Shown piece after piece: positions 2,144-19,684 of a DNA stretch of 64,000 bases. Position 1 is the first letter of the stretch. Each line of letters opens with the position of its first letter. A program made the position numbers and the translations under genes. The notes beneath the pieces were generated by a model, which saw nothing but the letters and a program-made list of their open reading frames with translations, was not told the DNA's origin and made no database searches. The stretch is from Octadecabacter sp. B2R22. GTDB taxonomy: Bacteria > Pseudomonadota > Alphaproteobacteria > Rhodobacterales > Rhodobacteraceae. The stretch is taken from assembly GCF_018861045.1 (NCBI RefSeq), contig NZ_JAHKQJ010000010.1, positions 248,001 through 312,000 on the forward strand, written 5' to 3'.

Positions 2144-3622
2144 CTACACTGACATGCAGATGTATTTCATTTCCAAGTAATCCTCGATCCCGTGGTGGCT
2201 GCCTTCACGGCCCAAGCCGGATTGTTTGACCCCGCCAAAGGGCGCGACTTCGGTTGAGATGATGCCTGTGTTTACGCCCACGATGCCGTATTCCAGTGCT
2301 TCGGCCACTTTGGTGACGCGGGATAGGTCTTTGGCGTAGAAATAGGATGCGAGGCCGAAGATCGTGTCGTTGGCCAACTCAATAACATCGTCTTCGTCTT
2401 CAAACTTGAACAGCGGCGCGAAGGGGCCGAAGGTTTCGTCCGTACTCACCAGCATGTCTTTGGTCGCGCCTGTCACGACGGTCGGTTCAAAGAACAGCGG
2501 ACCGAGGTTGGAGGCATTGCCGCCTGTCAGAACGTCGCCGCCTTTGGACAGCGCATCAGCAAGGTGTTCGCGCACTTTTTCCACGGCGGCAGGTGCGATC
2601 AGCGGGCCGAGGGTTGTGCCGTCCGTCAGGCCATCCCCGATTTTCAGCGCTTCGACTGCGGTTTTTAGTTTCTGGGCAAATTCATCGTAGACGCCCGCTT
2701 GCACGTAGATGCGGTTGGCGCAGACGCATGTCTGGCCGTTGTTGCGGAATTTGCAGGCGATGGCGCCGATCACGGCTTCGTCCAGATCAGCGTCGTCAAA
2801 GACGATGAAGGGCGCGTTTCCGCCCAGTTCCATGGAACATTTCATCACTTGGTCTGCCGCTTGTTTCAGCAGGATGCGCCCCACGGCGGTTGACCCTGTG
2901 AAGGTTAACTTACGCACGATGGGGTTTTCGCAGAATTCTTTACCGGTGCCGGACGCATCCGTGGATGTCAGCACAGAGAATAGGCCATCGGGGATGCCTG
3001 CCTCTTGCGCGAGTTTACCCATGGCGAGGGCCGACAGCGGTGTCAGTTCGGACGGGCGAACCACAAAGCCACAGCCCGCCGCCAAGGCGGGGGCGACTTT
3101 GCGCGCGATCATCGCGTTGGGGAAGTTCCACGGTGTGATGCCTGCTGCGACGCCGATGGGTTGTTTGATCACTGTGATGCGTGCGTTCGGCATGTGGCTA
3201 GGGATGGTTTCGCCATATACGCGCTTTGCTTCTTCGGCGAACCATTCCACGAAGGACGCGCCATAGGCGACTTCGCCGCGCGCTTCGGCCAGTGGTTTGC
3301 CTTGTTCAGCGGTCATGATGATGGCGAGGTCTTCTTGATTTTCCATCAACAAGTCGAACCATTTGCGCAGCACGTTTGCGCGGTCTTTTCCGGTACGTGC
3401 GGCCCAAACGTGGCGGGCGGTGTCGGCGGCATCAATTGCGTCCGCGATTTCTGCGCGGCTTAGGTCGGCGACCTTTGCGATTACGTCGCCACGGGCCGGG
3501 TTGGTCACATCGAAGGTTTTGCCGGATTTGGCTTGCACCCATTTGCCTGCGACGAAGGCGTCGGTGCAGACAAGGTCAGGGCGGGACAGCATGGACTTTA
3601 GGTCTGTTGTGGAATCAAGCAT
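2144..3622 (-). CDS. gabD: NAD(P)-dependent succinate-semialdehyde dehydrogenase
   Basis: This 492-residue protein is a full-length class I aldehyde dehydrogenase of the GabD type, oxidising succinate semialdehyde to succinate at the end of GABA degradation. Visible landmarks are TPWNFP (163-168), the cofactor-binding FTGSTAVG (241-248), the general base Glu265 in MELGGNAP and the catalytic Cys299 in NNGQTCVCANR. The length matches E. coli GabD (about 480). GGAG lies 7 bases before the ATG. The gene is divergent from the arylformamidase-like hydrolase, with a 67-base shared promoter region. A closely related semialdehyde dehydrogenase specificity, such as glutarate semialdehyde, cannot be excluded. 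Confidence 0.93.
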   Translation of the reverse strand: MLDSTTDLKSMLSRPDLVCTDAFVAGKWVQAKSGKTFDVTNPARGDVIAKVADLSRAEIADAIDAADTARHVWAARTGKDRANVLRKWFDLLMENQEDLAIIMTAEQGKPLAEARGEVAYGASFVEWFAEEAKRVYGETIPSHMPNARITVIKQPIGVAAGITPWNFPNAMIARKVAPALAAGCGFVVRPSELTPLSALAMGKLAQEAGIPDGLFSVLTSTDASGTGKEFCENPIVRKLTFTGSTAVGRILLKQAADQVMKCSMELGGNAPFIVFDDADLDEAVIGAIACKFRNNGQTCVCANRIYVQAGVYDEFAQKLKTAVEALKIGDGLTDGTTLGPLIAPAAVEKVREHLADALSKGGDVLTGGNASNLGPLFFEPTVVTGATKDMLVSTDETFGPFAPLFKFEDEDDVIELANDTIFGLASYFYAKDLSRVTKVAEALEYGIVGVNTGIISTEVAPFGGVKQSGLGREGSHHGIEDYLEMKYICMSV

Positions 3623-3689
3623 TGTGGTCTCCGATATGACTTTGGGAAATACCTACGCGGCTTCGCGGGATGATCCAAGAGGAGCCGTT

Positions 3690-6763: not shown

Positions 6764-6980
6764 CAGATTGCCTGCGACTGGGCGTGTTTTGCTTCGTTCG
6801 GGGCCATTGCGGATGTCCTTCTTTGCGTAAGTAGAACCAGTATCCTGCCGGGGTTGTGTGATTGCAAGCGATGCGAATGCACGCCAAAGCGCGGAAACTT
6901 TTTGAGTTTTATAATTTGGGGTGGTTTTGCTGTGCTTTGCAGGGGTAGTGTTTGGAAAACACAATCACTCGAGGGCAAAA

Positions 6981-7817
6981 ATGCAGTTTTCCACAGTTCG
7001 TACCGTCCGTTTTGCCCTGTTGGGATTGGCCATAGGGATTGTTTCAGCCTGTTCCAATAAAGTCGAGCTGATCGGGGGAATTCCAGCCGACCAGATCGTT
7101 GAAGGATACGGGTTCCTTGAGGACAATGGATATAATCTGCCACCGATCCCAGCTGAGTACTTGAGCGAATTGAACCGCCGTACTGTTGTTGATTACAACG
7201 GACCGGATGCTGCGGGCACAATTGTTGTCGATCCTCATGCGAAGCTTTTGTATTTTGTCGGTGATGACGGCACGGCGCGGCGTTATCCTATTGCTGTCGG
7301 GCGCCAGGGCATGAGCATGAGCCGCCCTTCGACTGTGCAATTGAAACGCGAATGGCCCGGTTGGACGCCAACGCAAAACATGTTGCGCACCCAGCCCGAA
7401 GTTTACGGTCCCTTCGCGCGCGGCGTTGAGGGTGGTCTGGCAAGCCCGTTGGGCGCGCGGGCGCTGTATCTGTTTCAGAACGGGCGCGACACGCATTTCC
7501 GTATTCACGGCACGAATGATTTGCCGTCTATCGGAAACTCGGGGTCTGCCGGATGTATCCGCATGTTCAACCACGACATCATTGATCTGTTTGACGATGT
7601 ACCGAACGGCACTCGGGTTGTGGTGCGGACCTATGCTGCCTCCGTTGAGCTGGAAGGCGAGGCGGTTGCCAATCGCGGTGTGATCCTTGAGCCGAACATC
7701 GTTGACCCGGATTTGATTTATGGCACGGGTGAAGATGATGCGGTTGAGTTGGATGAGATCGCAGAAGACGCCCCCGATTCCGATCCCTTAAGCAGCGCTA
7801 CGATTTCTGGCGGCTAA
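6981..7817 (+). CDS. L,D-transpeptidase (YkuD domain) lipoprotein
   Basis: A 278-residue protein with a lipobox (VSAC, Cys24) after an N-terminal hydrophobic helix, so it is probably an outer-membrane-anchored or periplasmic lipoprotein. The YkuD catalytic signature is present: His176 in FRIHGTND and Cys192 in SGSAGCIRM. The family forms 3-3 peptidoglycan cross-links or attaches lipoproteins to peptidoglycan. The C-terminal 60 residues are acidic (EDDAVELDEIAEDAPDSD), unusual for the domain and possibly a disordered tail. The gene overlaps the convergent membrane-protein gene by four bases at its stop. Confidence 0.9.
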   Translation: MQFSTVRTVRFALLGLAIGIVSACSNKVELIGGIPADQIVEGYGFLEDNGYNLPPIPAEYLSELNRRTVVDYNGPDAAGTIVVDPHAKLLYFVGDDGTARRYPIAVGRQGMSMSRPSTVQLKREWPGWTPTQNMLRTQPEVYGPFARGVEGGLASPLGARALYLFQNGRDTHFRIHGTNDLPSIGNSGSAGCIRMFNHDIIDLFDDVPNGTRVVVRTYAASVELEGEAVANRGVILEPNIVDPDLIYGTGEDDAVELDEIAEDAPDSDPLSSATISGG

Positions 7818-8359
7818 TAAGTAATTGTGAACTTCATTGCGCCGTTTACCAGTAGGTGGGCAGCGTAAACGGACCAGAAGCTGAGACAAAACAGCCCAAA
7901 ACGCATCCAGAGTCGGTGATAAGTGTGGCGGACGATCATCGCGGATAGCGGGTAGAGAGCCAAAGTGGCACCCAGCATAACGCCAACACCGAATAGCGAG
8001 TCTAGGTTGCCTTGGCCAACGACCATGAAAGCCAGTGCGCCCAGGATCCAAGGAACCCCCGAAAAAACGACGACTGGCGTGACGGTCATCAAGCCGAATG
8101 CTCCCAAGATCCGCCCACGGGTCGGGCGAAAGGTCTCTTTGAGTTGGCCTTTGGTTTGGCGGATCAGCCACCACAGCATCGCCAGTCCATACCCCAAGAC
8201 CAGCGAACAAGGGATAGCAACAAAGATCGGTAATGCTTTGCCGCTGGTTGCGTAATCCAAAAGCGCTGGGCGCCGCCCTAAATGGTAAAACACAAAGATC
8301 AGCGCACCTAGACAAAGAGCGAGGAAACGAGGTGGAGCATATGATTGAACATTGTTCAT
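7814..8359 (-). CDS. Multi-pass membrane protein, unknown function, 181 aa
   Basis: About five hydrophobic helices are visible (around 13-28, 43-66, 86-112, 120-143 and 150-172), separated by short loops with basic residues on alternate sides. I cannot assign a family. The gene is divergent from the coiled-coil gene at 8513 and shares its 153-base upstream region, while its end overlaps the L,D-transpeptidase stop. No clear ribosome-binding site was noted before the ATG at 8359. Confidence 0.7.
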   Translation of the reverse strand: MNNVQSYAPPRFLALCLGALIFVFYHLGRRPALLDYATSGKALPIFVAIPCSLVLGYGLAMLWWLIRQTKGQLKETFRPTRGRILGAFGLMTVTPVVVFSGVPWILGALAFMVVGQGNLDSLFGVGVMLGATLALYPLSAMIVRHTYHRLWMRFGLFCLSFWSVYAAHLLVNGAMKFTITY

Positions 8360-8512
8360 ACTTTATGTATAGCGGTAGGTGATGAAAATAGCAAAGGTCT
8401 GGAAAACCCGACCCGACGTCGCAAAAAACGACGATAATTCACTACTCGCGCCATGAAAATGTCGTTAACAATACCTACATAACACCCAACGAATTCTTAC
8501 AGTGAGGACCAT

Positions 8513-9589
8513 ATGGCCGATTTTGACGCGCAAATCCGTAAATCCCAATCCGAGGTTGCCGAAGCGCAATCCAAGATTTCAGAGCTAACGAGCCGGATTG
8601 AAACCGCACGTCAGAAGATGGCCGAGGGGACGGATATCGCTGTCGACATCGAGAATGCCTCGCTTGAGGACGTGCATGCCCACACCGAATTGATGAACGC
8701 GAACATCGCGGAACTGATCATGGGTCTGGACGATGTGACTGCCGGTTTCCAACAGGACTTCGACGAAATGCGCAACAAGACCGGCTGGGAAAGCTTTGTC
8801 GGGTTCTTTAGCGGTGCGAAGTCGGATTCCATGCGCGAAGAACGGATGCGGTCTGCGTCAGTTGATGACAAGCTGCAGGACCTGATTTCGAAGTCCGACG
8901 TGATCACCAAGCTGCTCGAAAACCAGTTGCTGATCCTTGAAGACCAGAAAACCAAAGTTGAAAGCAATCTTGGCGGCACGTTGGAAGAACGCGAAGCCGT
9001 TGTTGGTGAACTTGAAGCGGTCCGCGCTGAAATCCTCGCGTCTGATCCAAAGATCATCGCGCTGGAAAACAAGATCGCCGTTGAACAAGATGCCGCTGCA
9101 CGCACCAAGCTGGAAACAGAATTGGCTGCTCTGAACACCGCCTATAACGAGGCCGTACAGCAAGAGCAGGTGAAGCTTGCGAAGTCGCAAACGCTGGAAC
9201 GCTACATCGAAAAGGGCAAGACCTGGATCGATTCATTGCAGAACCAAGCGGCGACGCAGATGGTGCTGATCAACAAGCTGCAAACAGACACCAAACAGCG
9301 TGTTGTTCTGTATGATGCGCTGACGAAGTCCCTCAAGACCGCGCAGCAACAAGACGTCGCCCACCGCATCAACGAGATCGGCGTGAAGACAGACCAAGAA
9401 GCGCAGACAGCCATGGCCGCAATCGGTTCCGCCACCAACGCCCGCATGGCCGAGATGATGGAAGCCCATGAGGATCACATGGTGTTCGCCCGTGAAGTGT
9501 TGGAGCAGAAGGCCAAAGCGGACGATCGTTTCATGCGCCGTTTTGCGAAGATCGTCGAGAAGCACGACAGCAACCAGTATGGGGCTTGA
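8513..9589 (+). CDS. Long coiled-coil protein, first gene of the AAA-ATPase locus
   Basis: A 358-residue, almost entirely helical and highly charged protein with no signal peptide or membrane segment. Heptad-like stretches cover about 3-85, 120-235 and 270-350. A glycine/aromatic break (GWESFVGFFSG, 91-101) separates the first from the second. This layout, including the GW-F-GF element, loosely recalls TelA/KlaA toxic-anion-resistance proteins and other filament-forming coiled-coil proteins, but I cannot confirm homology. AGGA sits 6 bases before the ATG. It opens a colinear gene run to 16020. Together with the downstream AAA ATPase it could be a structural polymer or adaptor remodelled by the ATPase (inference). 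Confidence 0.8.
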   Translation: MADFDAQIRKSQSEVAEAQSKISELTSRIETARQKMAEGTDIAVDIENASLEDVHAHTELMNANIAELIMGLDDVTAGFQQDFDEMRNKTGWESFVGFFSGAKSDSMREERMRSASVDDKLQDLISKSDVITKLLENQLLILEDQKTKVESNLGGTLEEREAVVGELEAVRAEILASDPKIIALENKIAVEQDAAARTKLETELAALNTAYNEAVQQEQVKLAKSQTLERYIEKGKTWIDSLQNQAATQMVLINKLQTDTKQRVVLYDALTKSLKTAQQQDVAHRINEIGVKTDQEAQTAMAAIGSATNARMAEMMEAHEDHMVFAREVLEQKAKADDRFMRRFAKIVEKHDSNQYGA

Positions 9590-9914
9590 GCGGATACTCT
9601 TGAAACCAACCTATATGACATTAAAAACACGCAACCTTTTGGCGTCATTTGGGTTGGTCTTTTTTGTTCTTGTATCAATACTAGTGCCTGAACTGAAATC
9701 AATCACGGCCCATTTATTTGCCGTTCTTCTATTATCTATTTTAGTGTTGCTAGGCTTTGTTTCACCCTTGTTGCGCTTCCTATGTATCATAAGCGCGCGT
9801 TTGGAGGGCAAAGCTACGCCCAGCTTCAAATTTCCACACGAAGGGAGTGCTCGCTGGAAGGCAGTAACAATGTGGCTGGTCGGTGTAGATCGTAATGGGA
9901 AAATCTTACCGTGA
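9579..9914 (+). CDS. Small two-helix membrane protein, 111 aa
   Basis: This frame opens ten bases inside the end of the coiled-coil gene. It contains two strong hydrophobic segments (LLASFGLVFFVLVSILV and LFAVLLLSILVLLGFVSPLL) and a basic C-terminal tail. Its stop overlaps the GTG start of the next gene (GTGA), which supports real translation. An alternative start is the ATG at 9615 (99 aa). Neither start has a convincing ribosome-binding site. The DNA is visibly richer in A and T than its neighbours, so it may be a recent or fast-evolving insertion in the operon. No family recognised. Confidence 0.6.
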   Translation: MGLERILLKPTYMTLKTRNLLASFGLVFFVLVSILVPELKSITAHLFAVLLLSILVLLGFVSPLLRFLCIISARLEGKATPSFKFPHEGSARWKAVTMWLVGVDRNGKILP

Positions 9915-11029
9915 CTGATACCGCTTACGACCATTTCCAGCTTGAAGACACCCGCGTCACGCGGCGCTACTTTGGCAAGTTTGAGAAAATCATCGGCCAT
10001 TTAGGCCGTGTTGCGGCGACACTTGAGGCGGAGCGGCGGTTGTCCAAGCGCGACGTTGAAGTGATGACGCGCTATATTGTGGCGCTGAATTACACGTTCA
10101 AAGCGCTGGCGCATAAGTACCATTTCAGCGGGCGCTTTGCCCATGCGGGCAAGCTGACGTTTGATCGCGTGGACTCTGGGTTCCCTGTTTATTCCGAACT
10201 GCTGACCATGGCCAATGATGCGGCCCAAGCGAGTAAACATCTGGCGGGCATGCGATCCGTTGAGGCATTGAAGCAGGATATGGTCCGCGTGATCCTGTCC
10301 GAACAAGCGATCCCGACCAAACTGCAATATGCGCTGTCCCAGCGGCTCTATTACGAAGAACTGGCCAAGGGCGATCTGTTCTGGGCGCGCAATGATCCAA
10401 CGGCGATCTGGCTGGGCAACCAGCAAAAGATGCGTCGCGATTTTATGATCCATTGGGCGGTCTATGACAGCGTCAACAACCTGCCGACGATCTACATGAT
10501 GGAGCTTGAGGATTCAGGCCGTGTTGGCCTGCCAAAGGATGATCGCCGTTGGCCCGAAGTGCAGGCCCATTTGATGGCGCAGTCCTTGGGTGGGTTGAAA
10601 TTGCTCACCATCGCCAAAGGGTTTGATGAGGATTTCGATGACCTGCACCCCAAACGTTTGCGCCGTTTCCACGTCGGGCCGATGTATTCCAATGCGTTTA
10701 CCCGTCAGGCAGGGCCACTGCGCGAAGTGTTGGAACTAGCGCGATCCCCCGTAGGGGAAGACTGGGCGCTGGTCTGGACGGAAGAAGAGCTGGTATCCGA
10801 GGAAACACGCCGCGAGAAATCCGGTTGGTTTGGCACGGTGGAACGCGAAACATTTGCGCTGGACCCCTTTGCGGGACACGGCGCGGAAACCGGCGCTACC
10901 AAGGTCGAACGCAGCATCATCCTGCCCGAACGCCCCTATCAGGCACTAGAAGAACGCCGCCCTGCGGGGTTCAACGATGTTCGCAAGTTCGTGGTGTCGC
11001 CCAAGGGGCGGGTTCTGAGTTATAAATAG
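9911..11029 (+). CDS. Uncharacterised soluble protein of the AAA-ATPase locus, 372 aa
   Basis: The gene begins with GTG in a four-base overlap with the preceding small membrane-protein gene. The product has no signal peptide or membrane span. The first 100 residues are helical and basic (KRDVEVMTRYIVALNYTF). The middle, about 165-300, looks alpha/beta with a repeated aromatic pattern, and the last 60 residues appear less ordered. I recognise no catalytic motif. Being wedged between the coiled-coil and the ATPase genes, it is a candidate adaptor or substrate-binding partner (inference). Confidence 0.8.
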   Translation: MTDTAYDHFQLEDTRVTRRYFGKFEKIIGHLGRVAATLEAERRLSKRDVEVMTRYIVALNYTFKALAHKYHFSGRFAHAGKLTFDRVDSGFPVYSELLTMANDAAQASKHLAGMRSVEALKQDMVRVILSEQAIPTKLQYALSQRLYYEELAKGDLFWARNDPTAIWLGNQQKMRRDFMIHWAVYDSVNNLPTIYMMELEDSGRVGLPKDDRRWPEVQAHLMAQSLGGLKLLTIAKGFDEDFDDLHPKRLRRFHVGPMYSNAFTRQAGPLREVLELARSPVGEDWALVWTEEELVSEETRREKSGWFGTVERETFALDPFAGHGAETGATKVERSIILPERPYQALEERRPAGFNDVRKFVVSPKGRVLSYK

Positions 11030-11071
11030 ATTTAATTTGAGTATTTTTGATAAAATGGAACGAGGGTCGTA

Positions 11072-13006
11072 ATGAGCCAGACAAGTGACACAATGGAGCT
11101 GCGCGAAGAGGACATTCGCAAGCATTACGACGCGGCCACAGCCATGGTGCAGGGGTTTGATCACACACCGCGCATTGCGGAAACCAAAGAGGCTGCTCCG
11201 ATCGAGAAATCCAGCGGCATTGGCACGCGGCGACGGTTTCGCACGACGACGCCGGGTTTGGTGACCCGCAGCACGGCCCGCACCGAGGGTGTGCAACTGT
11301 CGGAACGGATTGAAAGCGCGGATGACGGGGACGGTTTGACGTCGCCCACACAGGCCAGTGTGTTGCACGGGCTGCGCCGCTCGCTGGCGATTGCCTTGGC
11401 GGTGGGGGAACAGTTTGGCGAACGCACAGGTCTGGCGGATCTCAAACGCGCCAATCTGGAAGGATCTTTGCCAGCGGGTAAAAAGACCGAATTCAGCGAA
11501 CTTCTGACGGCTGAGGCACTGGCGGTTTCATATGTTTTCGCCAATTCCACGTCGTTTCTGCTGTCGTCCCATGCGGGCGAAGAAAGCGTCGAAGTTGGCG
11601 AGGTCGAAGAGGTTCTAACGGACAACGCGACACTGGCGCTGCACGGTGCTTTGTGGGAGCTGGATCAGGACATCGGGTTGTTTGCGGGCGAAGAAGGGCG
11701 GCTTGTTCCGACGGTCCTCGCCTATGCAGAACAACTGATGGCCAAGATCGCGGCTCGGGCTAGCACGGCTGGCCGTTTGGCAAGCTTTGTTGACGCAAGC
11801 TGGAAAGTCGAAGCCGATGATCTGACCATCCGTGGCTTTAGCCCTGCACGTGCGGCCAAAGGGTCGACGCTCACGATGTCGTTCAAAAAACCCAATGAGG
11901 TCGTCGGCAACCATATCGCCAAATATCAGGCGATGAAGCTGGCCAAGATGGTCATGGCCTATGATTTCGAACGCAAGTTGAACCCGTTTGCCGAACTCGG
12001 TGGGTTTATCTTCACGTTCATGGGGGACGGCGCACCGGGCACGGGTAAAACGACCCTGATCCAGATGATGGCGGGGTTGATTTCGGAGTACTGCAAGGTT
12101 GCCGACTATCCGTTCCGTTATCAGAACCTGAGCACCGACAACATCGACAGCTATCAGGGTAAATCGGGCCAGAACGCTAAGGCGTTTATCAACAACGTGA
12201 TTGATCCCAATGTCATCGGCTTTGGCACGATTGACGATATTGATCAGTTGGCGGGGAAACGCGGGGATCGTCAGTCCTCGGCGGGTCAGTTGGAAATTAC
12301 CGCCGTGCTGATGGAAAGCTTTGCAGGTGCCAATACGGTTGTGCGCGGCAACTGCACCTTTGGGATGTTTTCGAACTACCCCGAAAACGTCGATGATGCG
12401 CTACGCCAACGGGCAGGGGCGCGGTTCTTGGTGGATGGTCCGCAGACGCGGGATGACTACGTCGATATCCTGTATCTGTTGATGGGAAAGAACCACGATA
12501 TCCCAGTCGGCGATCATGAGGTGTTCAGCGCTCAAGAGATTAAAAAAGCCGTCGCGGCATCGTTCGAAGGACACTCCAAACCCCATGAACCCGGTTTGCT
12601 AAACGTGTTTGATCGGGTGTCTTCTGAAATTGGCGAATTGGATACGATTAACAAACTCGGGACGTACCTTAAGGGTATTCAAGAGGCGGATAACCGTTTC
12701 ACGGGCCGTGCGATTAAGAACATCACGGACGCCGTTAAGGTGCGCGCGATGGACTTTGAATTGCCGGATGAATGGATGGAAAACCCAGAACTGTTCTTGG
12801 CCAAGGATTACGACGCCAAGCTGGCGATGATCAACGACATGCGCCAACCGATCACCGTTGAAATGGTGATACAGGAAATCAACCGCTACGCCGATTCAGA
12901 GTTCCGCTATGCTGATAAATCCGACGAGGTCGCGATTGATAACATGGTGCGCGATTTCGAGCGTTCCGAGGAAGCCAAGCGGCGGTATCTGGAGAGTAAA
13001 TCTTGA
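11072..13006 (+). CDS. AAA-family ATPase with an unusual N-terminal half, 644 aa
   Basis: Residues 300-560 form an AAA module: Walker A GAPGTGKT (320-327), a Walker B-like strand GFGTIDDID (383-391) with Asp388-Asp389 in place of the usual DE, and a sensor/arginine-finger region SNYPENVDDALRQRAGARF (434-452) with Arg445, Arg447 and Arg451. Residues 1-290 are not a family I know: a basic, Ser/Thr-rich start and then helices. The last 80 residues are charged and helical. The missing Walker B glutamate could mean weak hydrolysis, or it may be supplied by a neighbouring residue. The 42-base AT-rich gap before it may contain an internal promoter. Context suggests a remodelling machine acting on the coiled-coil and membrane proteins encoded around it (inference). 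Confidence 0.88.
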   Translation: MSQTSDTMELREEDIRKHYDAATAMVQGFDHTPRIAETKEAAPIEKSSGIGTRRRFRTTTPGLVTRSTARTEGVQLSERIESADDGDGLTSPTQASVLHGLRRSLAIALAVGEQFGERTGLADLKRANLEGSLPAGKKTEFSELLTAEALAVSYVFANSTSFLLSSHAGEESVEVGEVEEVLTDNATLALHGALWELDQDIGLFAGEEGRLVPTVLAYAEQLMAKIAARASTAGRLASFVDASWKVEADDLTIRGFSPARAAKGSTLTMSFKKPNEVVGNHIAKYQAMKLAKMVMAYDFERKLNPFAELGGFIFTFMGDGAPGTGKTTLIQMMAGLISEYCKVADYPFRYQNLSTDNIDSYQGKSGQNAKAFINNVIDPNVIGFGTIDDIDQLAGKRGDRQSSAGQLEITAVLMESFAGANTVVRGNCTFGMFSNYPENVDDALRQRAGARFLVDGPQTRDDYVDILYLLMGKNHDIPVGDHEVFSAQEIKKAVAASFEGHSKPHEPGLLNVFDRVSSEIGELDTINKLGTYLKGIQEADNRFTGRAIKNITDAVKVRAMDFELPDEWMENPELFLAKDYDAKLAMINDMRQPITVEMVIQEINRYADSEFRYADKSDEVAIDNMVRDFERSEEAKRRYLESKS

Positions 13007-13353
13007 TCGCAGTGACGATCATATGCTCTTTCTTTTTGCCGGCTTTGATTTGCTGGGGAACTGGCTATGTGTATGGCTGGAAAACTGATTGGCCCAGACT
13101 TCTGCCGAGCGTTTTCGAGACACTGGATATATTCTCGCTCGCCTTTGTGCTTTGTGTGGTTTTTTCATTGTTCGCCGCATCGGGGATCGCATGGGCTTCA
13201 GCAATAGACACCAACGTAGCGATGATCCGACACACGATCTTTTTCGTTCATGACAACGGGTTGCAGATCGCGGCGGCTTTGGGGGCCGGAATTGTCGTAT
13301 GTGGGTTAGGGCGCACGCGCGGTATGGCGCGCCGCGCGCAGGCTGTCCAATGA
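13003..13353 (+). CDS. Membrane protein of the AAA-ATPase locus, 116 aa
   Basis: Three hydrophobic helices are visible (about 3-24, 43-66 and 82-103) with a basic C-terminal tail (RTRGMARRAQ). The most likely start is the TTG at 13003, which overlaps the ATPase stop (TTGA). No in-frame ATG lies nearby, and the GTG at 13012 is an alternative. Its own stop overlaps the next start (ATGA). It is not related to any family I can name. Its coupling to the ATPase suggests a membrane anchor for the complex. Confidence 0.75.
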   Translation: MIAVTIICSFFLPALICWGTGYVYGWKTDWPRLLPSVFETLDIFSLAFVLCVVFSLFAASGIAWASAIDTNVAMIRHTIFFVHDNGLQIAAALGAGIVVCGLGRTRGMARRAQAVQ

Positions 13354-13694
13354 GTGACGCCTTTTCATCAGGTTTGCTGTTGCCCGCGATCTGCTTGGCC
13401 GCTTTGGGCTGGACAGTGCCGCGGTTGCTGGCGTTGTGGTGGCCCGAAGGGGTGAAGTGGCTGATGGGGTTGGCGCTGGTGTCCACGCTGGTGATGGCGC
13501 TTTGCGGTGCTGCGTTTTTTGTGGTGATCTATGCGGCGCAGGGCGTCAGCATGGCTGATCTATGGGCGACGGGCGGGTTGTCCGTCACGATCCACTTTGT
13601 GAAACTGAGTTTGATTTCCGCATTACTGTGGGGACCGTTGATGGTCTTGTCATTGGCAGGTGTGCCGAAGAACTGGGTTAAGGAAGTTTGGTGA
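13350..13694 (+). CDS. Membrane protein of the AAA-ATPase locus, 114 aa
   Basis: Three transmembrane helices (about 8-28, 38-63 and 80-105) with short loops. The ATG overlaps the preceding stop by four bases, so translation is coupled. The size and topology match the preceding 116-residue protein, and the two may be a diverged pair forming one membrane subcomplex, although I see no clear sequence identity. Function unknown. Confidence 0.75.
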   Translation: MSDAFSSGLLLPAICLAALGWTVPRLLALWWPEGVKWLMGLALVSTLVMALCGAAFFVVIYAAQGVSMADLWATGGLSVTIHFVKLSLISALLWGPLMVLSLAGVPKNWVKEVW

Positions 13695-13695
13695 A

Positions 13696-15045
13696 ATGAA
13701 ACGTCTCATCTCTCGCGGTCTTATGTTCGGGAATCTGATCCCCGTGGTCAGCCCTATCCTGGTGGAGCGGTACAATCGTGCGCTCAAACGTCTGACCGGA
13801 AAGCAAACCGAACTCACGGATTTTCATATCGATATTTCGGGGTATTCCCCCGAGATCGGCGATGAATTTGGCGATGATTTGTACCTGAACCATCACGGGG
13901 TGAACCGTCAGTTTATTTTACTGACGACGGACCAGAAGACGGCGCCGCTGTTGAATGCGAAGTTTTCCACTTCACGCGGGATTTTGCGCCAGTTCATCGA
14001 GGCCAACGAGGCGCAGTTGTTTGCCTTGACCGCACGGGACGCTGTTGCAGGGGAGTTGGTGAATTCGGTCTTTGCGCTGGATACCCCTGCGCGGTTGTTT
14101 GACATTGGCCATGTAGAGATCGAGGCGGATACGACGGATGGGGCGGTGGCTTCGGCCCAGAAGCTCGGCGGGATGATTGACCGCTTTATGGGTGAGGAAG
14201 ATGCGTGGTGCGATGATGTGCTGATCGGCGAAATGATCGGCCTCGCCAAGGACACGGGCGACATCACACGCAACCCGCTGACGCTCAAGACGATGACGTT
14301 TGATCAGGACAATTTCTGGACCGCTCATTTGGGCGGGTTCTATTTGTTTCGCGATGTGGAAGAGCCTGCGGCGATTACCATGGGCGACAAAGAGAGCTTG
14401 GGTAAATTACCGATTGAACATCTGTTGCAACGAAACGAACGCTCGGCAATAGCGCAGTTTCTGAAGGTGAATGATCTGGCCGAACCGATCATCGAGGCGC
14501 GCGGCATCGATAGTGCTGCGATCCTACGTCAAAAGATGGACTTTATTGTTGCCGATGTTGCGGCGGGTCTTGGCGAAGATCTGAGCCGCGCAACACGCCG
14601 CGATCTGCGACGGTTGGGGCGGCAGTATCATGACAAGCTGCCTGCCGCATGGCGCGGGCTGGCGGACCTTGTGCGCTGGGCAGAAGATGGCGGGCCGTGG
14701 CCCAAGATCGACAGCGAACACCCCGCCTATTTCTACACGCTGCGCGCTAAAGACCATAAAGACGCGGATTTGGTGAACATGTTGTTGGCCGAACTGACCG
14801 AGATGGATGTGCGCCAACTGTTCATCTGCCACAAAGAAGCATTCTACCGCGCCTATATGGGCTGGCCGGACGAAAAGAAGGCTTATGTGGCGGAATTCCT
14901 TTCAAACGAGTATCAGGTGGATAAAGCGGGCACACGTGATGCCCTGTTCGGCCATGAGGCGGCGATGGAAGAAGCACCAGCCGCCCCAAAACGGCAAACC
15001 ACAATTGATCGGGTCGGGCCTTGGGGCGCGGTTAAGAGGAGATGA
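13696..15045 (+). CDS. Uncharacterised soluble protein of the AAA-ATPase locus, 449 aa
   Basis: The ATG follows one base after the preceding stop. The product is a large soluble alpha/beta protein with a basic start (MKRLISRGLMFGN), an acidic centre and a long helical C-terminal half, ending in a basic tail (TTIDRVGPWGAVKRR). No catalytic motif stands out. It may belong to one of the DUF families restricted to Rhodobacterales, but I cannot name it with confidence. It is the largest protein in the run after the ATPase, and its fixed place between membrane-protein genes argues for a role in the same complex. Confidence 0.8.
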   Translation: MKRLISRGLMFGNLIPVVSPILVERYNRALKRLTGKQTELTDFHIDISGYSPEIGDEFGDDLYLNHHGVNRQFILLTTDQKTAPLLNAKFSTSRGILRQFIEANEAQLFALTARDAVAGELVNSVFALDTPARLFDIGHVEIEADTTDGAVASAQKLGGMIDRFMGEEDAWCDDVLIGEMIGLAKDTGDITRNPLTLKTMTFDQDNFWTAHLGGFYLFRDVEEPAAITMGDKESLGKLPIEHLLQRNERSAIAQFLKVNDLAEPIIEARGIDSAAILRQKMDFIVADVAAGLGEDLSRATRRDLRRLGRQYHDKLPAAWRGLADLVRWAEDGGPWPKIDSEHPAYFYTLRAKDHKDADLVNMLLAELTEMDVRQLFICHKEAFYRAYMGWPDEKKAYVAEFLSNEYQVDKAGTRDALFGHEAAMEEAPAAPKRQTTIDRVGPWGAVKRR

Positions 15046-15046
15046 C

Positions 15047-15316
15047 ATGCAATTTGTAAGATTGGTCGTATTCGGGTTCTTGCTGCTTGGCGTGATCTAT
15101 TTCGGAATTTCGCTTTACTCGCGCTCAATTCGCAAAGAAAAGCTGGAGGAAGAGTGGGACAAAAACCTGCCTGAAGATGCAACCGCTGAGACACGCGATG
15201 CCTTTATTGCAAAGGGCATGGCGAAATATGAAAGCGGGCTGCGCAAAAAGCTGATCCTGCTGGTCTTTGTAATTCCGCCGCTTATCGTCGGCACCATTAT
15301 TTACTTCATCAACTGA
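15047..15316 (+). CDS. Small membrane protein of the AAA-ATPase locus, 89 aa
   Basis: Two transmembrane helices (about 4-24 and 68-87) flank a 40-residue charged loop (SIRKEKLEEEWDKNLPEDA). The start at 15047 has GAGGAG 6 bases upstream and lies one base after the preceding stop. No family is recognised. The charged loop resembles a cytoplasmic or periplasmic docking segment, but its side is not decided by the sequence. Confidence 0.75.
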   Translation: MQFVRLVVFGFLLLGVIYFGISLYSRSIRKEKLEEEWDKNLPEDATAETRDAFIAKGMAKYESGLRKKLILLVFVIPPLIVGTIIYFIN

Positions 15317-15327
15317 GGGCTGTTTTC

Positions 15328-16020
15328 ATGCGCAATATCAGACGTTTCCTTCGTATCGCCCTGTTCCTGATTGTCGGGTTGTGGTTGCATTATGTGATGC
15401 CGCAGCAGGATATCGTTCGGGTCGTCAAAACCGAAGATTTCAGAGTGGATTTTTCTGTTTGGAACCGAATGTTTTATGCACAAGCGGACTCGGGCACTGT
15501 TGAATTGCCGACACGGCAGGTTCGCATCATCAATACGGTCCGAAAGCGGACTTTCTTTTTTGGCTTGATCCGTGGCGACGACCAAACAATGAACTATCGT
15601 AACGAAGATACGGGGTGGATTTATCCACCGTATTTCAAGTTCGACAGCTCTAATCTGGACACGGAAGCGCAGGATTTGGTTTCGACGGCGCAAGAGCCGG
15701 AATGGGCGATCATTACGCACTACGGGTGGCGCATTAAGCTGATTTCGGTCTTTCCCAACGCGGTGTCGATCCGACCAATCGTGGTGCCCGAAGGGCAATC
15801 GCCAGAAGACTATCGGCCGTTTCCTTGGGTGAATTTGATTATTTTTGCCGCCATGATTATCGGTTTTTTGTTTGTGCGGGCCGCTTGGAGGCAGTTTCGG
15901 GAGCGCACGGTTGATCCATTGGCCGACAAGGTTGGGGATCAGTATGACCATGTGAGTGCCGATTTGTCCGACCGAAAGGGCCGCATTTCCCGTTGGCTTG
16001 GAACGTGGCGCAAGAAGTAA
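15328..16020 (+). CDS. DUF1523 family membrane protein
   Basis: A 230-residue protein with an N-terminal helix (about 8-25), a domain of about 130 residues and a second helix (about 167-187) before a basic tail. The phrases HYVMPQQDIVRVV, YRNEDTGWIYPPYFKFDSSN and HYGWRIKLISVFPNAVSIRP are the conserved core of DUF1523, whose function is unknown. The topology places the conserved domain in the periplasm. It follows the previous gene by 11 bases and is the last gene before the strong terminator. It is the only member of the run apart from the ATPase that I can place in a named family. Confidence 0.85.
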   Translation: MRNIRRFLRIALFLIVGLWLHYVMPQQDIVRVVKTEDFRVDFSVWNRMFYAQADSGTVELPTRQVRIINTVRKRTFFFGLIRGDDQTMNYRNEDTGWIYPPYFKFDSSNLDTEAQDLVSTAQEPEWAIITHYGWRIKLISVFPNAVSIRPIVVPEGQSPEDYRPFPWVNLIIFAAMIIGFLFVRAAWRQFRERTVDPLADKVGDQYDHVSADLSDRKGRISRWLGTWRKK

Positions 16021-16053
16021 CGATCTTACGATCGGGTCCTGCGGACGGCGGGG

Positions 16054-16080
16054 GCGCCCCTTTCGGGGCGCTTTTCGTTT
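16054..16080 (+). terminator. Rho-independent terminator after the AAA-ATPase locus
   Basis: A perfect 7-bp stem, GCGCCCC (16054-16060) and GGGGCGC (16065-16071), with loop TTTC is followed by TTTTCGTTT. It lies 33 bases after the DUF1523 stop and closes the gene run that began at 8513. Confidence 0.9.
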
Positions 16081-16114
16081 CCAGTGCAGGTGCAGGGTCG
16101 ACGTGCGCTGAATG

Positions 16115-16354
16115 TCAGCTGCTGTGCATCCGGATCAACGCCCAGAGTTGGTAAAGAGTTATCACCGCCCCGAGCACGGCAAGACTGCCCCATGACAGGC
16201 CCGATTGTTGCAGCATGACAGTGCCACTGACAGGGTCAAAACAACGGCCCAACTCGTTAAAACAGTCCCGCCATTTAAAGTAGCGATCATAATAGGCGAA
16301 GCTGCACAGGCCCGTTGCGCAAAGCGATAAGGTGAAGAGGGCGAGCCTTTTCAT
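16115..16354 (-). CDS. Small two-helix membrane protein, 79 aa
   Basis: Starts MKRLALFTLSLCATGLCSFA, a hydrophobic first helix or signal peptide, and carries a second helix near 53-72. Between them is a cysteine-bearing loop (RDCFNELGRCFDP) that could form a disulfide outside the cytoplasm. It begins 19 bases after the aldehyde dehydrogenase stop on the same strand and is probably the last gene of the deoC operon. No family recognised. Confidence 0.65.
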   Translation of the reverse strand: MKRLALFTLSLCATGLCSFAYYDRYFKWRDCFNELGRCFDPVSGTVMLQQSGLSWGSLAVLGAVITLYQLWALIRMHSS

Positions 16355-16373
16355 AGCATCTCTGTTGCTCGCT

Positions 16374-18692
16374 TCACTCGCCGTAGGGAATCCAGATCGT
16401 TTTGATCTCGGTGGATTGCGCGCGCCAAGTGGAACTTGGCCAGCTGCGTGCAGTTCCGTTGTTAACCCATGTGCGTTTGAGGTTTTGGGCTGACTTTGCC
16501 TCGATGATTTCAGACGTGTCAGAGGTCGAGAAGGACCAAACCGCGTCGATGTTGGCATGTGCTGCCATGTGCGGCGCCAATTCCGAATGATCCCCGGTCA
16601 GGATGTTGACGACACCTGCAGGCACGTCAGAGGTATCCAGAACCTGATAGAAATCCGTGGCCGCAAGCGGGAACGCTTGTGATGCGACAGCCGTGATGCG
16701 GTTGCCCATGGCGAGTGCGGGTGCCAGTGGTTCGATCAGCCCCATGAGGGGGCGGGTGTCGTCTGTAAGAACAGCGATGTTGCCGACGGGTTCGTTCATC
16801 GCCAATGCGACGCCACGGATGGGCACGCCCTTTGCAGCGCCATCATGTTTGTCGGCCCAAGCGGCCCACGTGAATAGGTGATCAATCGCGTCAGAGACTT
16901 CTTTTGCGCCGATTTTGGTTCCGGTGAGATGGTTGATCCGGTCGGCAAATTCATCCGCACGGGCGGAGAGGTTTTCACCGATGTAATACAGGATTTGTGC
17001 CCGCAAGTGACCGGTGGTTTTTGACCAGCCCTTTGCGGCGGCCATGGCCTCAACAGCGTTGCGCAGGTCTTTGCGGTTGGCGATGCTGGCGTGACCCAGA
17101 AGCTTGCCAGACTTGTTGAAGACAGGTTGCGAATAGCCACCATCAGGGCGGGCTTGTTTGCCACCAACATATAGTTTGGCCGTGCGATCCAGCGGGTCGG
17201 CGGGAGTGCCGTCATCCGATGTGAACGCAACGGGCGCTTTAACGTCAGAGGATTTTCCGCGTGGTTTGGTGTAACCGAGCAGGCCTTCCCAACCGCCTTC
17301 GCGACCGAAACCGCTTTCGCGTACACCGCCAAAGCCAGCAGCGGCATCCATTAGGTTGGTGGCGTTGACCCAGACGATGCCTGACACCAGTTTGGGTGCG
17401 ATGTCCAAGGCGAGGTTCACGTTTTCCGTCCAGACAGACGCGGCGAGCCCGTAGCGCGTGTTGTTGGCAATTTCTACGGCTTCCGCAGGGGTGCGGAAGG
17501 TGCAGGCGACCAGCACTGGGCCGAAGATTTCTTCCTGCATCAGCGTGTCAGCTGGCGCGAGGCCCGTGATCAGGGTTGGCGGGTAAAAGCAGCCGTCGGG
17601 TGCGGCGCATTGGTGCATTTCGCCAGACGTGTTTGCATCGACCATGGCTTTGATCTGGTCGAGCTGCACGATGTCGGCGATGGCGCCCATGTCGATGCAT
17701 TTATCCAGACCGTCACCGATGCGCAGGCCATCCATACGGGCGCGCAGTTTGGTGTAAAAACGATCCGCGATGCCTTCTTGTACCAAAAGGCGAGAGCCCG
17801 CGCAGCAGACTTGGCCTTGGTTGAACCAGATCGCATCCACGAGGCCTTCGACCGCTGAATCAATATCGGCGTCATCAAAGACTATGTAGGGGGATTTGCC
17901 GCCCAGTTCCAAAGACAGGGCTTTGCCTGATCCGGCGGTTTGTTCGCGGATGATACGGCCCACGGCGGTGGAGCCTGTGAACGCGATTTTGTCGACATCG
18001 GACGCGACCAAAGCAGCGCCTGTGTCGCCGTCACCCGTGACGATATTGATCACACCGGGGGGCACGCCAGCCGCCGTGCAGATTTCGCAGAACACCATGG
18101 CGGACAGCGATGTGTATTCGGCTGGTTTGAGGACAACCGTGTTGCCCATCGCAAGGGCAGGCGCGATTTTCCAAGCGAGCATCAACAGCGGAAAATTCCA
18201 CGGGATGATCTGGCCGCAAACACCAAGTGGTTCGGCGTTGGGCATTTCTTCGTCCATCAGTTGGGCGAAGCCCGCGTGGTGATAGAAGTGGCGGATCGCC
18301 AGTGGCACATCGATGTCTCGGCTTTCGCGGATCGGTTTGCCGTTGTCCAGCGTTTCCATCACGGCCAGCAACCGCGCGTTCTTCTGCATCAGACGAGCGA
18401 TGGCGTAGAGGACTTTGGCCCGTGTCTTGCCGTCTTTGGCCCATTTGGGTTGCGCTTTGCGCGCGGCTGCGACGGCTGATGCGACCTCGTCGGCGGTGCC
18501 ATTGGTGACACCCGCAAGGCGTTCGCCTGTCGCTGGGTTGGTGGACGCGAAGTCATCACGCAAAGGGCCCCATTGCCCGTTGATAAAGTGACCCGCGATG
18601 CCACCACGATCTGCCAGCCAAGCCAGTGCTTCGGAGGCGTCTTCGGGGGCAGGGCCGTAGTCCATGGATTCAAAAATGTCTTTGACGGTCAT
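16374..18692 (-). CDS. Double-domain aldehyde dehydrogenase, 772 aa
   Basis: Residues 1-480 are a complete aldehyde dehydrogenase: IIPWNFP (162-168), FTGSTAVG (238-245), Glu262 in LELGGKSP and the catalytic Cys296 in FNQGQVCCAGS. Residues about 505-772 restart like a second aldehyde dehydrogenase (KLYVGGKQARPDGGYSQPVFN) but stop before any catalytic cysteine, so the second unit keeps only the cofactor-fold part. Proteins of this shape sit next to deoC in Rhodobacteraceae and plausibly oxidise the acetaldehyde released from deoxyribose 5-phosphate to acetate (inference). The ATG at 18692 lies 5 bases after the deoC stop with GGATAAG upstream. The longer open frame continues into deoC in another phase and is not used. 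Confidence 0.88.
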   Translation of the reverse strand: MTVKDIFESMDYGPAPEDASEALAWLADRGGIAGHFINGQWGPLRDDFASTNPATGERLAGVTNGTADEVASAVAAARKAQPKWAKDGKTRAKVLYAIARLMQKNARLLAVMETLDNGKPIRESRDIDVPLAIRHFYHHAGFAQLMDEEMPNAEPLGVCGQIIPWNFPLLMLAWKIAPALAMGNTVVLKPAEYTSLSAMVFCEICTAAGVPPGVINIVTGDGDTGAALVASDVDKIAFTGSTAVGRIIREQTAGSGKALSLELGGKSPYIVFDDADIDSAVEGLVDAIWFNQGQVCCAGSRLLVQEGIADRFYTKLRARMDGLRIGDGLDKCIDMGAIADIVQLDQIKAMVDANTSGEMHQCAAPDGCFYPPTLITGLAPADTLMQEEIFGPVLVACTFRTPAEAVEIANNTRYGLAASVWTENVNLALDIAPKLVSGIVWVNATNLMDAAAGFGGVRESGFGREGGWEGLLGYTKPRGKSSDVKAPVAFTSDDGTPADPLDRTAKLYVGGKQARPDGGYSQPVFNKSGKLLGHASIANRKDLRNAVEAMAAAKGWSKTTGHLRAQILYYIGENLSARADEFADRINHLTGTKIGAKEVSDAIDHLFTWAAWADKHDGAAKGVPIRGVALAMNEPVGNIAVLTDDTRPLMGLIEPLAPALAMGNRITAVASQAFPLAATDFYQVLDTSDVPAGVVNILTGDHSELAPHMAAHANIDAVWSFSTSDTSEIIEAKSAQNLKRTWVNNGTARSWPSSTWRAQSTEIKTIWIPYGE

Positions 18693-18697
18693 TGTTC

Positions 18698-19684
18698 TTA
18701 TCCAATCGCGTGACGCCAACCGGCGGAATAGCCGCCTGTGACGTGGTGTTCGAGTTGCCGTTCGATGTCGCCTAAAAGCGAGGATGCGCCAAAGCGGAAG
18801 AGGTCCGGTTGCAGCCAGCGGTCGCCGAGTTCGTCTTTGATCAACGCCAGATAGACCAGCGCATCTTTGGCTTTGCTGATCCCGCCTGCCGGTTTGTAGC
18901 CGACGCGCAGACCTGTACGGTCGTAGTAATCGCGGATCGCGCGGATCATCGTCAGGGTCACGGGCAGGGTTGCATTGACGCTTTCTTTGCCTGTGCTGGT
19001 TTTGATGAAATCGGCTCCGGCCATCATGCACACCACTGAGGCGCGCGCGACGTTGCGCAAGCTGCCCAGTTCGCCCGTGGCGAGGATGGCTTTGACGTGG
19101 GCATTGCCACAGGCGGCGCGCATTTCAGCCATTTCATCATAAAGCGCCTGCCAGTTGCCTTGCAGGACATGGCGGCGGGTAATGACGATGTCGATTTCTT
19201 CTGCTCCGGCTTTCACGCTTTCGCCGATTTCGGCAATGCGCAGCGGGAAGGGCGAGAGGCCCGCAGGGAAACCAGTTGATACGGCTGCAACGGGAATGCC
19301 TGAACCGCGCAAGGCGTCCACGGCCGTTTCGACCATATCGTGGTAAACGCAAATGGCGCCTGTTGTCAGGCCTTCCATGCCCAATGTTGTTAGCAGCTCG
19401 GGGCGTACGGGCTGGCGGGCCTTGGCGCACAGTCGGCGCACGCGGCCTTCGGTGTCATCGCCCGCGAGTGTGGTCAGATCGATCAGGCTGATGGCCTTAC
19501 ACAGCCATGCAGCTTGGTAGTCCTTCTTGACTGAGCGACGCCCAGGAAGGGTCGCGGCGCGACGTTCAATCGCGGAGGTATTCGCCTGAACGGCCTTCAC
19601 CCATGAGATATCCAGCGGAATCCCGTCGTTGCGGGGTTCCTGAACTTGCGGAAGGTGGGTGGTTGTTTTGTCTGAGGTCAGCAT
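18698..19684 (-). CDS. deoC: Deoxyribose-phosphate aldolase
   Basis: A 328-residue class I aldolase cleaving 2-deoxyribose 5-phosphate to glyceraldehyde 3-phosphate and acetaldehyde. The Schiff-base lysine is Lys228 in DFIKTSTGK, and the assisting lysine is Lys264 in VGYKPAGGIS. VKAILATGEL is the conserved strand between. It is longer than the E. coli enzyme (about 260) because of about 70 extra N-terminal residues. The start was taken as the ATG at 19684; an upstream ATG at 19738 would add 18 residues with no better ribosome site. Operon order is AraC regulator, deoC, aldehyde dehydrogenase, small membrane protein. Confidence 0.92.
   Translation of the reverse strand: MLTSDKTTTHLPQVQEPRNDGIPLDISWVKAVQANTSAIERRAATLPGRRSVKKDYQAAWLCKAISLIDLTTLAGDDTEGRVRRLCAKARQPVRPELLTTLGMEGLTTGAICVYHDMVETAVDALRGSGIPVAAVSTGFPAGLSPFPLRIAEIGESVKAGAEEIDIVITRRHVLQGNWQALYDEMAEMRAACGNAHVKAILATGELGSLRNVARASVVCMMAGADFIKTSTGKESVNATLPVTLTMIRAIRDYYDRTGLRVGYKPAGGISKAKDALVYLALIKDELGDRWLQPDLFRFGASSLLGDIERQLEHHVTGGYSAGWRHAIG

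Follow-up and report, generated by a model that had tools for sequence, protein, structure and literature searches.

A conserved four-gene core pairs an AAA ATPase with a coiled-coil protein in Rhodobacteraceae, rhizobia, and Vibrio

A 64,000-nucleotide stretch of the Octadecabacter sp. B2R22 genome (the window; contig NZ_JAHKQJ010000010.1, positions 248,001 to 312,000; our contig C3 of a 3.3-Mb genome) carries, at 8513-16020 of its forward strand, nine colinear open reading frames (ORFs) that encode a coiled-coil protein (CC), a 372-residue protein (U372), an AAA ATPase (AAA), a DUF6638 protein, and five membrane proteins, one of which belongs to DUF1523 (Table 1). A first-pass annotation had predicted this run, its tight spacing, and the membrane character of five products. 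Indeed, all nine ORFs are present, and the intergenic distances, in gene order, are +25, -4, +42, -4, -4, +1, +1, and +11 bases, with the start of P0002 taken as 9615 (a chosen start, on which the junction figures depend). Transmembrane (TM)-like segments were found by Kyte-Doolittle analysis in P0002, P0005, P0006, P0008, and P0009 and were absent from CC (P0001), U372 (P0003), AAA (P0004), and DUF6638 (P0007). Two products had been described as three-helix proteins; P0006 does have three such segments, but P0005 has two. Pfam, with matches considered up to E 1, names just three of the nine products: AAA (PF00004, 44.3 bits against a cut-off of 21.2; a single AAA domain), DUF6638 (PF20343, 785.9 bits against 27), and DUF1523 (PF07509, 185.7 bits against 23). 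The view that only the ATPase and the DUF1523 protein could be assigned to a family was thus incorrect, and both DUF families are of unknown function. The top NCBIfam match was that of P0005 to an SMR-transporter model (3.1e-06, 27.8 bits, below the cut-off of 200), and PADLOC and PHROGs gave weak matches only, chiefly to the AAA domain.

Table 1. Coordinates of the operon and its features in the window
Feature	Position	Strand	Basis
CC (P0001), 358 amino acids (aa), coiled-coil, core gene 1	8513..9589	+	AlphaFold long helices
CC residues 270-291, SLKTAxQQxxAHxxNxxG block at 273-290	9320..9385	+	10 invariant positions, 33 ATPase-positive CCs
CC C-terminal motif, residues 343-357	9539..9583	+	H351, Y356 invariant in 33 ATPase-positive CCs
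P0002, small 2-TM protein, variable slot 1 (CC/U372 gap)	9615..9914	+	TM segments
U372 (P0003), 372 aa, core gene 2; helical N half, beta-rich C half	9911..11029	+	AlphaFold
AAA ATPase (P0004), 644 aa, core gene 3	11072..13006	+	PF00004 E 3e-11
Walker A GDGAPGTGKT (318-327) of AAA	12023..12052	+	14-row alignment
Pore loop 1 SYQG (360-363) of AAA	12149..12160	+	opposite Vps4 KWMG, katanin KYRG
Walker B TIDDID (386-391) of AAA	12227..12244	+	14-row alignment
P0005, small membrane protein, variable slot 2	13003..13353	+	two TM-like segments
P0006, 3-TM protein, variable slot 2, commonest slot family	13350..13694	+	25/80 loci
DUF6638 protein (P0007), 449 aa, core gene 4	13696..15045	+	PF20343 E 1.3e-236
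GPWGA tail motif (441-445) of DUF6638	15016..15030	+	alignment of 21 Rhodobacteraceae rows
P0008, 90-aa 2-TM protein, Rhodobacteraceae-type operon	15047..15316	+	77/80 loci
P0009, DUF1523 membrane protein, 2 TM, Rhodobacteraceae-type operon	15328..16020	+	PF07509 E 6.5e-55
Intrinsic-terminator-like hairpin	16047..16079	+	-21.2 kcal/mol, z -2.7

The first-pass annotation had staked its reading on conserved gene order in relatives, and order is conserved. AAA is present in 89 of 149 genomes of the order; 87 of these carriers have a single match, one has the gene split across two contigs, and one has a fragment with a stop. In all 20 divergent loci selected from the 89 hits, all of them from Rhodobacteraceae (the name we use for the window's family, from the named loci), CC, U372, AAA, DUF6638, P0008, and DUF1523 follow one another in the same order on one strand. 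Among 80 named loci, 75 have all six genes and 77 have the four genes CC-U372-AAA-DUF6638; of the five incomplete ones, four are cut by contig ends and one (L081) has CC-U372-AAA without DUF6638, P0008, or DUF1523 within 10 kb. The same four-gene order is found in two further alphaproteobacterial families (L157, L164), in rhizobia (L158-L160, L165, L166, S. meliloti L207, and R. leguminosarum L208), on replicons of about 0.9 Mb of V. vulnificus and V. parahaemolyticus (L205, L206), and in L156, which comes from a genome (G474) belonging to a different class of the phylum. A class-wide search, in which at most four candidates per genome were scored and whose count is therefore a lower bound, was positive in at least 5 of 289 genomes, four of them Rhodobacteraceae.

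The membrane genes that follow the core differ between lineages. P0008 is found in 77 of the 80 named loci and in L156, and DUF1523 is found in 77 of the 80 and in L156, L157, and L164. In AAA-positive rhizobia, a DUF2333 membrane protein is encoded 3' of DUF6638 in each of five stretches tested (L159, L278-L281), and in S. meliloti L207 a DUF2333 gene is likewise annotated after DUF6638. (We term this family, f160, rhizobial [Rhizobiaceae] on the grounds that its loci share neighbours with the S. meliloti record, namely thymidine kinase, choline transporter, DUF2333, and formate-tetrahydrofolate ligase.) Since the membrane genes change from lineage to lineage while the core is kept, the system is a four-gene core without TM segments, six genes being conserved in Rhodobacteraceae and four across lineages. 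A single nine-member complex, as first proposed, does not fit this distribution: P0002 and P0005 had no match in the 80 named loci or in two same-genus loci, and P0006 was matched in 25 of the 80. L156 carries the entire Rhodobacteraceae-type operon, including DUF1523 and the 90-aa protein, in another class; its core proteins are 58-71% identical to the four of the window, which suggests, as far as sequences go, transfer as a unit. In S. meliloti L207, an ORF with an endonuclease domain and an insertion element (IS4-type transposase) separate AAA from DUF6638; the record (CP090106.1) is named plasmid pSymB and is 3.7 Mb long, which we take to be nearer the size of the chromosome. In both Vibrio loci the core lies immediately upstream of the mfd gene, and in L205 the gene just upstream of CC encodes a product without a Pfam family.

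P0002, P0005, and P0006 are mostly the contents of two fast-changing slots for small membrane proteins. The CC/U372 gap ranges from about zero to 1.3 kb, and the AAA/DUF6638 gap extends to 2.4 kb. Among gaps of at least 150 bases, counted in the 100 of 103 loci that have all four core genes, a sense-strand ORF with two or more TM-like segments was present in 49 of 64 CC/U372 gaps and in 65 of 90 AAA/DUF6638 gaps, whereas antisense ORFs of this kind were found in 0 of 64 and 0 of 90. The 150 slot proteins fall into 70 clusters with 49 singletons, an upper bound on diversity because some are probably spurious out-of-frame readings. The largest cluster is a 3-TM family with 37 members to which P0006 belongs (it was also matched in both same-genus loci, at 79% and 60%), and another large cluster has nine members, proteins of about 280 aa whose N-terminal part is membrane-type. 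The two slots appear as hot spots inside an otherwise rigid operon (L031-L130, L156, L157, L164).

The core genes also come and go together. In the 27 Rhodobacteraceae genomes listed in both searches, AAA and DUF6638 were both present in 14 and both missing in 13. Among 161 genomes of the rhizobial family, 103 have CC and 95 have AAA, and all 95 AAA carriers lie within the 103. The identity matrices of the four core proteins (28 loci) correlate pairwise with r of 0.92-0.97, a value reached in 0 of 1,000 permutations; much of this correlation is due to shared ancestry, but it is also what joint inheritance and transfer would give. In the rows aligned, CC is 68-81% and AAA 59-77% identical to its counterpart in the window.

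An alignment of 14 diverse rows, Vibrio included, was used to inspect the motifs of AAA. In Walker A, G318, D319, G320, and P322-T327 are invariant and residue 321 varies; Y361-Q362-G363 of pore loop 1 and D388, D389, and D391 of Walker B are invariant; and the sensor Asn435 and the arginines R445 and R447 of the second region of homology are conserved. The Walker B thus has Asp where most AAA proteins have the catalytic Glu. A single-sequence search of PDB returned FIGNL1 as the best match (3.1e-05), followed by i-AAA protease and then Vps4 and katanin, and a profile search ranked i-AAA, FIGNL1, and katanin. By its motifs AAA is a classic AAA protein with a pore loop of the threading type. 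For the aromatic pore loop of Vps4 and katanin, threading of polypeptides is established, and since that loop is kept, AAA most likely threads or pulls a polypeptide by analogy.

U372 has no significant Pfam family. Its AlphaFold model is confident (predicted local distance difference test [pLDDT] 89.2, predicted template-modelling score [pTM] 0.88), with mostly helices up to residue 153 and strands plus helices at 160-371; a fold search of PDB gave nothing below E 0.3 and only weak SPFH- or T-fold-like similarity. Profile searches of PDB with U372 and DUF6638 gave no useful match, and TelA weakly matched one of 21 U372 members (E 0.28). In the tail of DUF6638, P442, W443, and G444 are invariant in the 21 Rhodobacteraceae rows, and GPWG is also present in L157 but absent from the DUF6638 of L156, L164, and the rhizobial and Vibrio rows. 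Because L156 and L164 have a DUF1523 gene without the motif, GPWG is not simply tied to DUF1523; we can only guess that it docks a partner.

CC (P0001) gave no significant Pfam or NCBIfam family, and no significant family was among the matches listed for 21 CC members (25 of 30 families). AlphaFold, run with close relatives alone, predicted long helices at 117-190 and 194-287 that form an antiparallel hairpin (pLDDT about 69-92 over 121-260); the whole model has a pLDDT of 61.6 and a pTM of 0.38, with uncertain ends. The 33 CCs from ATPase-positive loci (Vibrio included) share 54 invariant positions, 10 of them within 273-290. Residues 263-296 are the best-conserved stretch, with a mean majority frequency of 0.85, compared with 0.61 in distant positives and 0.15 in three ATPase-less (orphan) CCs of genus g294.

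These orphans offer a natural experiment. CC occurs without AAA in eight rhizobial genomes; G879 is uninformative, since it is 68% complete with a nearly full CC match (2-360), and the other seven fall into three genera, g294 (G467, G525, G654), g475 (G793, G889), and g311 (G666, G908). In all seven, CC is followed directly by DUF2333, with no U372, AAA, or DUF6638 in the stretch. AAA was searched for again in all seven genomes with every candidate scored, and none was found; DUF6638 was found in none of these seven plus G879 (0/8). The AAA re-search of four of the orphans plus G879 (0/5) and the DUF6638 re-search included no positive genome, but the same queries did match kin of the same family in other searches. 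Of the 10 block residues, the g294 orphans keep 0, 0, and 0, the g475 orphans 2 and 2, and the g311 orphans 0 and 0; the three g294 proteins lack the whole of 270-291. At 45-267, 32 further positions are invariant in the ATPase-positive CCs, and of these 19, 19, and 18 are kept in g294, 9 and 5 in g475, and 13 and 12 in g311. With 0-2 of 10 kept in the block against 12-19 of 32 elsewhere, the aligned sequences make absence of the block specific in g294 and g311, whereas in g475 it is indistinguishable from general divergence. H351 and Y356, invariant where the ATPase is present, are absent in 7/7 orphans, but F340 and R343 close by are for the most part retained. Judged from these alignments, CC may touch the ATPase or its partners through the 270-291 block and possibly through its extreme C-terminus, and the hairpin may serve a role common to CC and DUF2333. 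The two-gene module of a divergent CC and DUF2333 without the ATPase core was seen in three rhizobial genera (L161, L162, L163, L274-L277); in L161, the ORF just upstream of CC is presumably thymidine-kinase-like, as recognised by eye.

The interpretation that we favour, tentatively and at somewhat less than an even chance, is an ATP-driven remodelling machine in which a Vps4-like motor would pull on CC near the membrane. The long helical hairpin would let CC form a rod or polymer at the inner membrane, and interchangeable membrane proteins might anchor or recruit it there: in Rhodobacteraceae DUF1523 and P0008, in rhizobia DUF2333, and the small slot proteins. U372 and DUF6638 could act as adaptor or regulator of the AAA ring. 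The ring would grip CC by the 270-291 block, perhaps also by the C-terminal end, and pull it through the pore, and CC would in this way be extracted, exchanged, or disassembled; the machine would then work as Vps4 does on ESCRT-III, although its parts show no recognisable relationship to theirs. Envelope repair, division, or transport might be the process that it serves. Counted in favour of this are the core order, the gene-by-gene presence, the matrix correlation, the CC block, the likeness of AAA, the CC hairpin, and the membrane ORFs found in the sense direction only. The pairing of an AAA motor with a coiled coil, proposed at first sight, gains weight from the CC block, whose conservation is confined to loci with the ATPase, and the proposed link to the membrane agrees with membrane genes at fixed slots of the operon and after the core; the envelope-stress character was not borne out.

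Several observations weigh against this machine. The similarity of AAA to PDB sequences is weak (best E 3e-5; by profile 0.0019), its Walker B is invariantly DD, and neither an MIT domain nor the C-terminal oligomerisation domain of Vps4 (Vps4_C) was among its Pfam matches up to E 1, a search with sequence profiles only. No specific fold match of CC was among the Foldseek/VIA hits, which were generic coiled coils and helical bundles with a Vipp1 entry at rank 38 (E 0.25), and its profile search of PDB gave designed coiled coils and a ribosomal protein only (E 0.26-0.72). P0001 matched neither PspA (PF04012; hhalign P 0.044 over 53 columns) nor TelA (PF05816; hhalign P 0.034 over 44 columns) up to E 1, and neither family was among the matches listed (25/30 families) for the 21 CC members. 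The g475 orphans (L274, L275), with just 9 and 5 of 32 positions kept, may lack the block through general divergence, and the clear block contrast therefore comes from the sequences of two genera; confidence in the CC model is low around the block itself. In the g294 orphans, residues 336-358 are no worse kept (0.26) than the hairpin arms (0.24-0.28), so that the tail argument comes down to H351 and Y356. According to the annotation, no recognised membrane partner adjoins the Vibrio loci, where hypothetical products were outside the TM check. Finally, polymerisation, membrane binding, and all of the contacts are things we infer.

Since U372 and DUF6638 are as constant in the core as CC, U372 is large and confidently modelled as folded, and membrane genes follow or interrupt the core, AAA might instead be an assembly chaperone with a MoxR/CbbQ-like role that builds or activates a complex of U372, DUF6638, and membrane proteins on a CC scaffold. 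We regard this as fairly unlikely: the conserved CC block goes with the ATPase and points to CC as a contact, and the metal ion-dependent adhesion site motif, DxSxS, is not kept, the nearest stretch of DUF6638 (DISGYS) not being conserved in L164 or rhizobia. Improbable in our view is a housekeeping complex of the cell envelope or of division, with CC as a static rod that undergoes no polymer turnover and AAA as a regulator. The single match per genome in 87 of 89 carriers and the high conservation of CC and AAA would fit it, but the threading pore loop is kept, and AAA is not essential to the order because 60 of the 149 genomes have no match. More improbable still is a diversifying conflict or anti-phage system, with the variable membrane proteins as effectors or immunity-like parts. 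The great diversity of the slot proteins (some possibly spurious) and weak PADLOC 2.0 matches of AAA to TRIP13 (7.6e-06) and IetA (0.0022) speak for it, but these matches cover the AAA domain alone, the core is inherited together, and 70 of 103 loci have an aldehyde dehydrogenase gene close by downstream (paralogues may inflate this count), unlike a defence island. PADLOC 2.0 gave no convincing system-specific match among the operon products; its other weak matches were of CC to a type II restriction endonuclease model (0.0042) and of DUF1523 to a specificity subunit (0.043). The TRIP13-type defence ATPases share a weak AAA-domain profile match with the operon but differ in that no HORMA or cyclase partner was among its Pfam matches, the similarity being generic to AAA. 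Very improbable is a TelA/XpaC-like system against metal or toxic-anion stress in which an AAA protein is the partner: TelA is also a long helical soluble cytoplasmic protein near membrane genes, but the hhalign comparison with CC is not significant, and a separate TelA is encoded in the same genome (2.8e-110).

Of the known systems, ESCRT-III/Vps4 is like the proposed CC-remodelling machine in joining a helical-hairpin protein and a classic AAA ATPase at the level of the operon, in the presence of Vps4, katanin, and FIGNL1 among the nearest PDB sequences, and in the conserved C-terminal end of the helical partner. It differs in that no homology of CC to PspA-branch members of the superfamily is detectable in sequence, no MIT domain was among the Pfam matches of AAA, two extra proteins belong to the core, and Asp replaces Glu in Walker B. 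The PspA/phage-shock systems likewise combine a coiled-coil protein with an AAA+ ATPase and membrane proteins, and PspA occasionally stands beside a protein with two AAA+ domains of which the N-terminal one is inactive (passages of PMC11237479). CC does not match PspA and AAA has one domain by Pfam; a PspA-family match is present elsewhere in the same genome. The survey of PspA/Snf7-AAA operons in PMC11237479 does not, in the passages concerned, name a CC-U372-AAA-DUF6638 operon. In the literature searched, which left most subscription papers outside, we found no paper that treats the system, names DUF6638, or links Rhodobacteraceae, AAA ATPase, coiled-coil, and ESCRT; the one paper found for DUF2333 places it in a type VI secretion system gene neighbourhood of Pseudomonas.

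The operon is bounded on the left, as annotated, by a divergent gene, 7814-8359 (-), with a hydrophobic 181-aa product without a Pfam family; beyond it, 6921-7817 (+) encodes what we take by eye to be an L,D-transpeptidase-like lipoprotein. On the right, the predicted terminator corresponds to the hairpin of Table 1, with a T-rich 3' side; the consensus promoter/terminator scan missed it, and terminator-like sites were not in excess (10 versus 9.3 in shuffles). Rfam at its gathering threshold gave no family within 8000-16500. Aldehyde dehydrogenase genes lie at 2147-3652 (-), by Pfam, and, presumably, at 16374-19031 (-) on the other side of the operon, where we recognised one by eye; of 103 relatives, 69 and 70, respectively, have a homologue close to the operon, although some paralogues may enter into both counts.

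PspA is a bacterial member of ESCRT-III, and passages of PMC11746142 and PMC11237479 treat a dedicated Vps4-like motor for it as an open question. That the core would be a separate bacterial counterpart of the Vps4/ESCRT-III principle, with a dedicated AAA motor, its own polymer protein, two new adaptor families, lineage-specific membrane anchors, and two slots that swap small membrane proteins to set where or on what the machine acts, is rather doubtful. Two of the core proteins, CC and U372, were without a Pfam family, and U372 combines a confident model with the lack of a significant PDB match. The orphan CCs provide a natural design for testing the block that goes with the motor. Moreover, the AAA/coiled-coil operon is widespread in roseobacters and rhizobia; genetic tools exist for some genera of these groups, so that a motor-driven polymer machine would be directly testable there.

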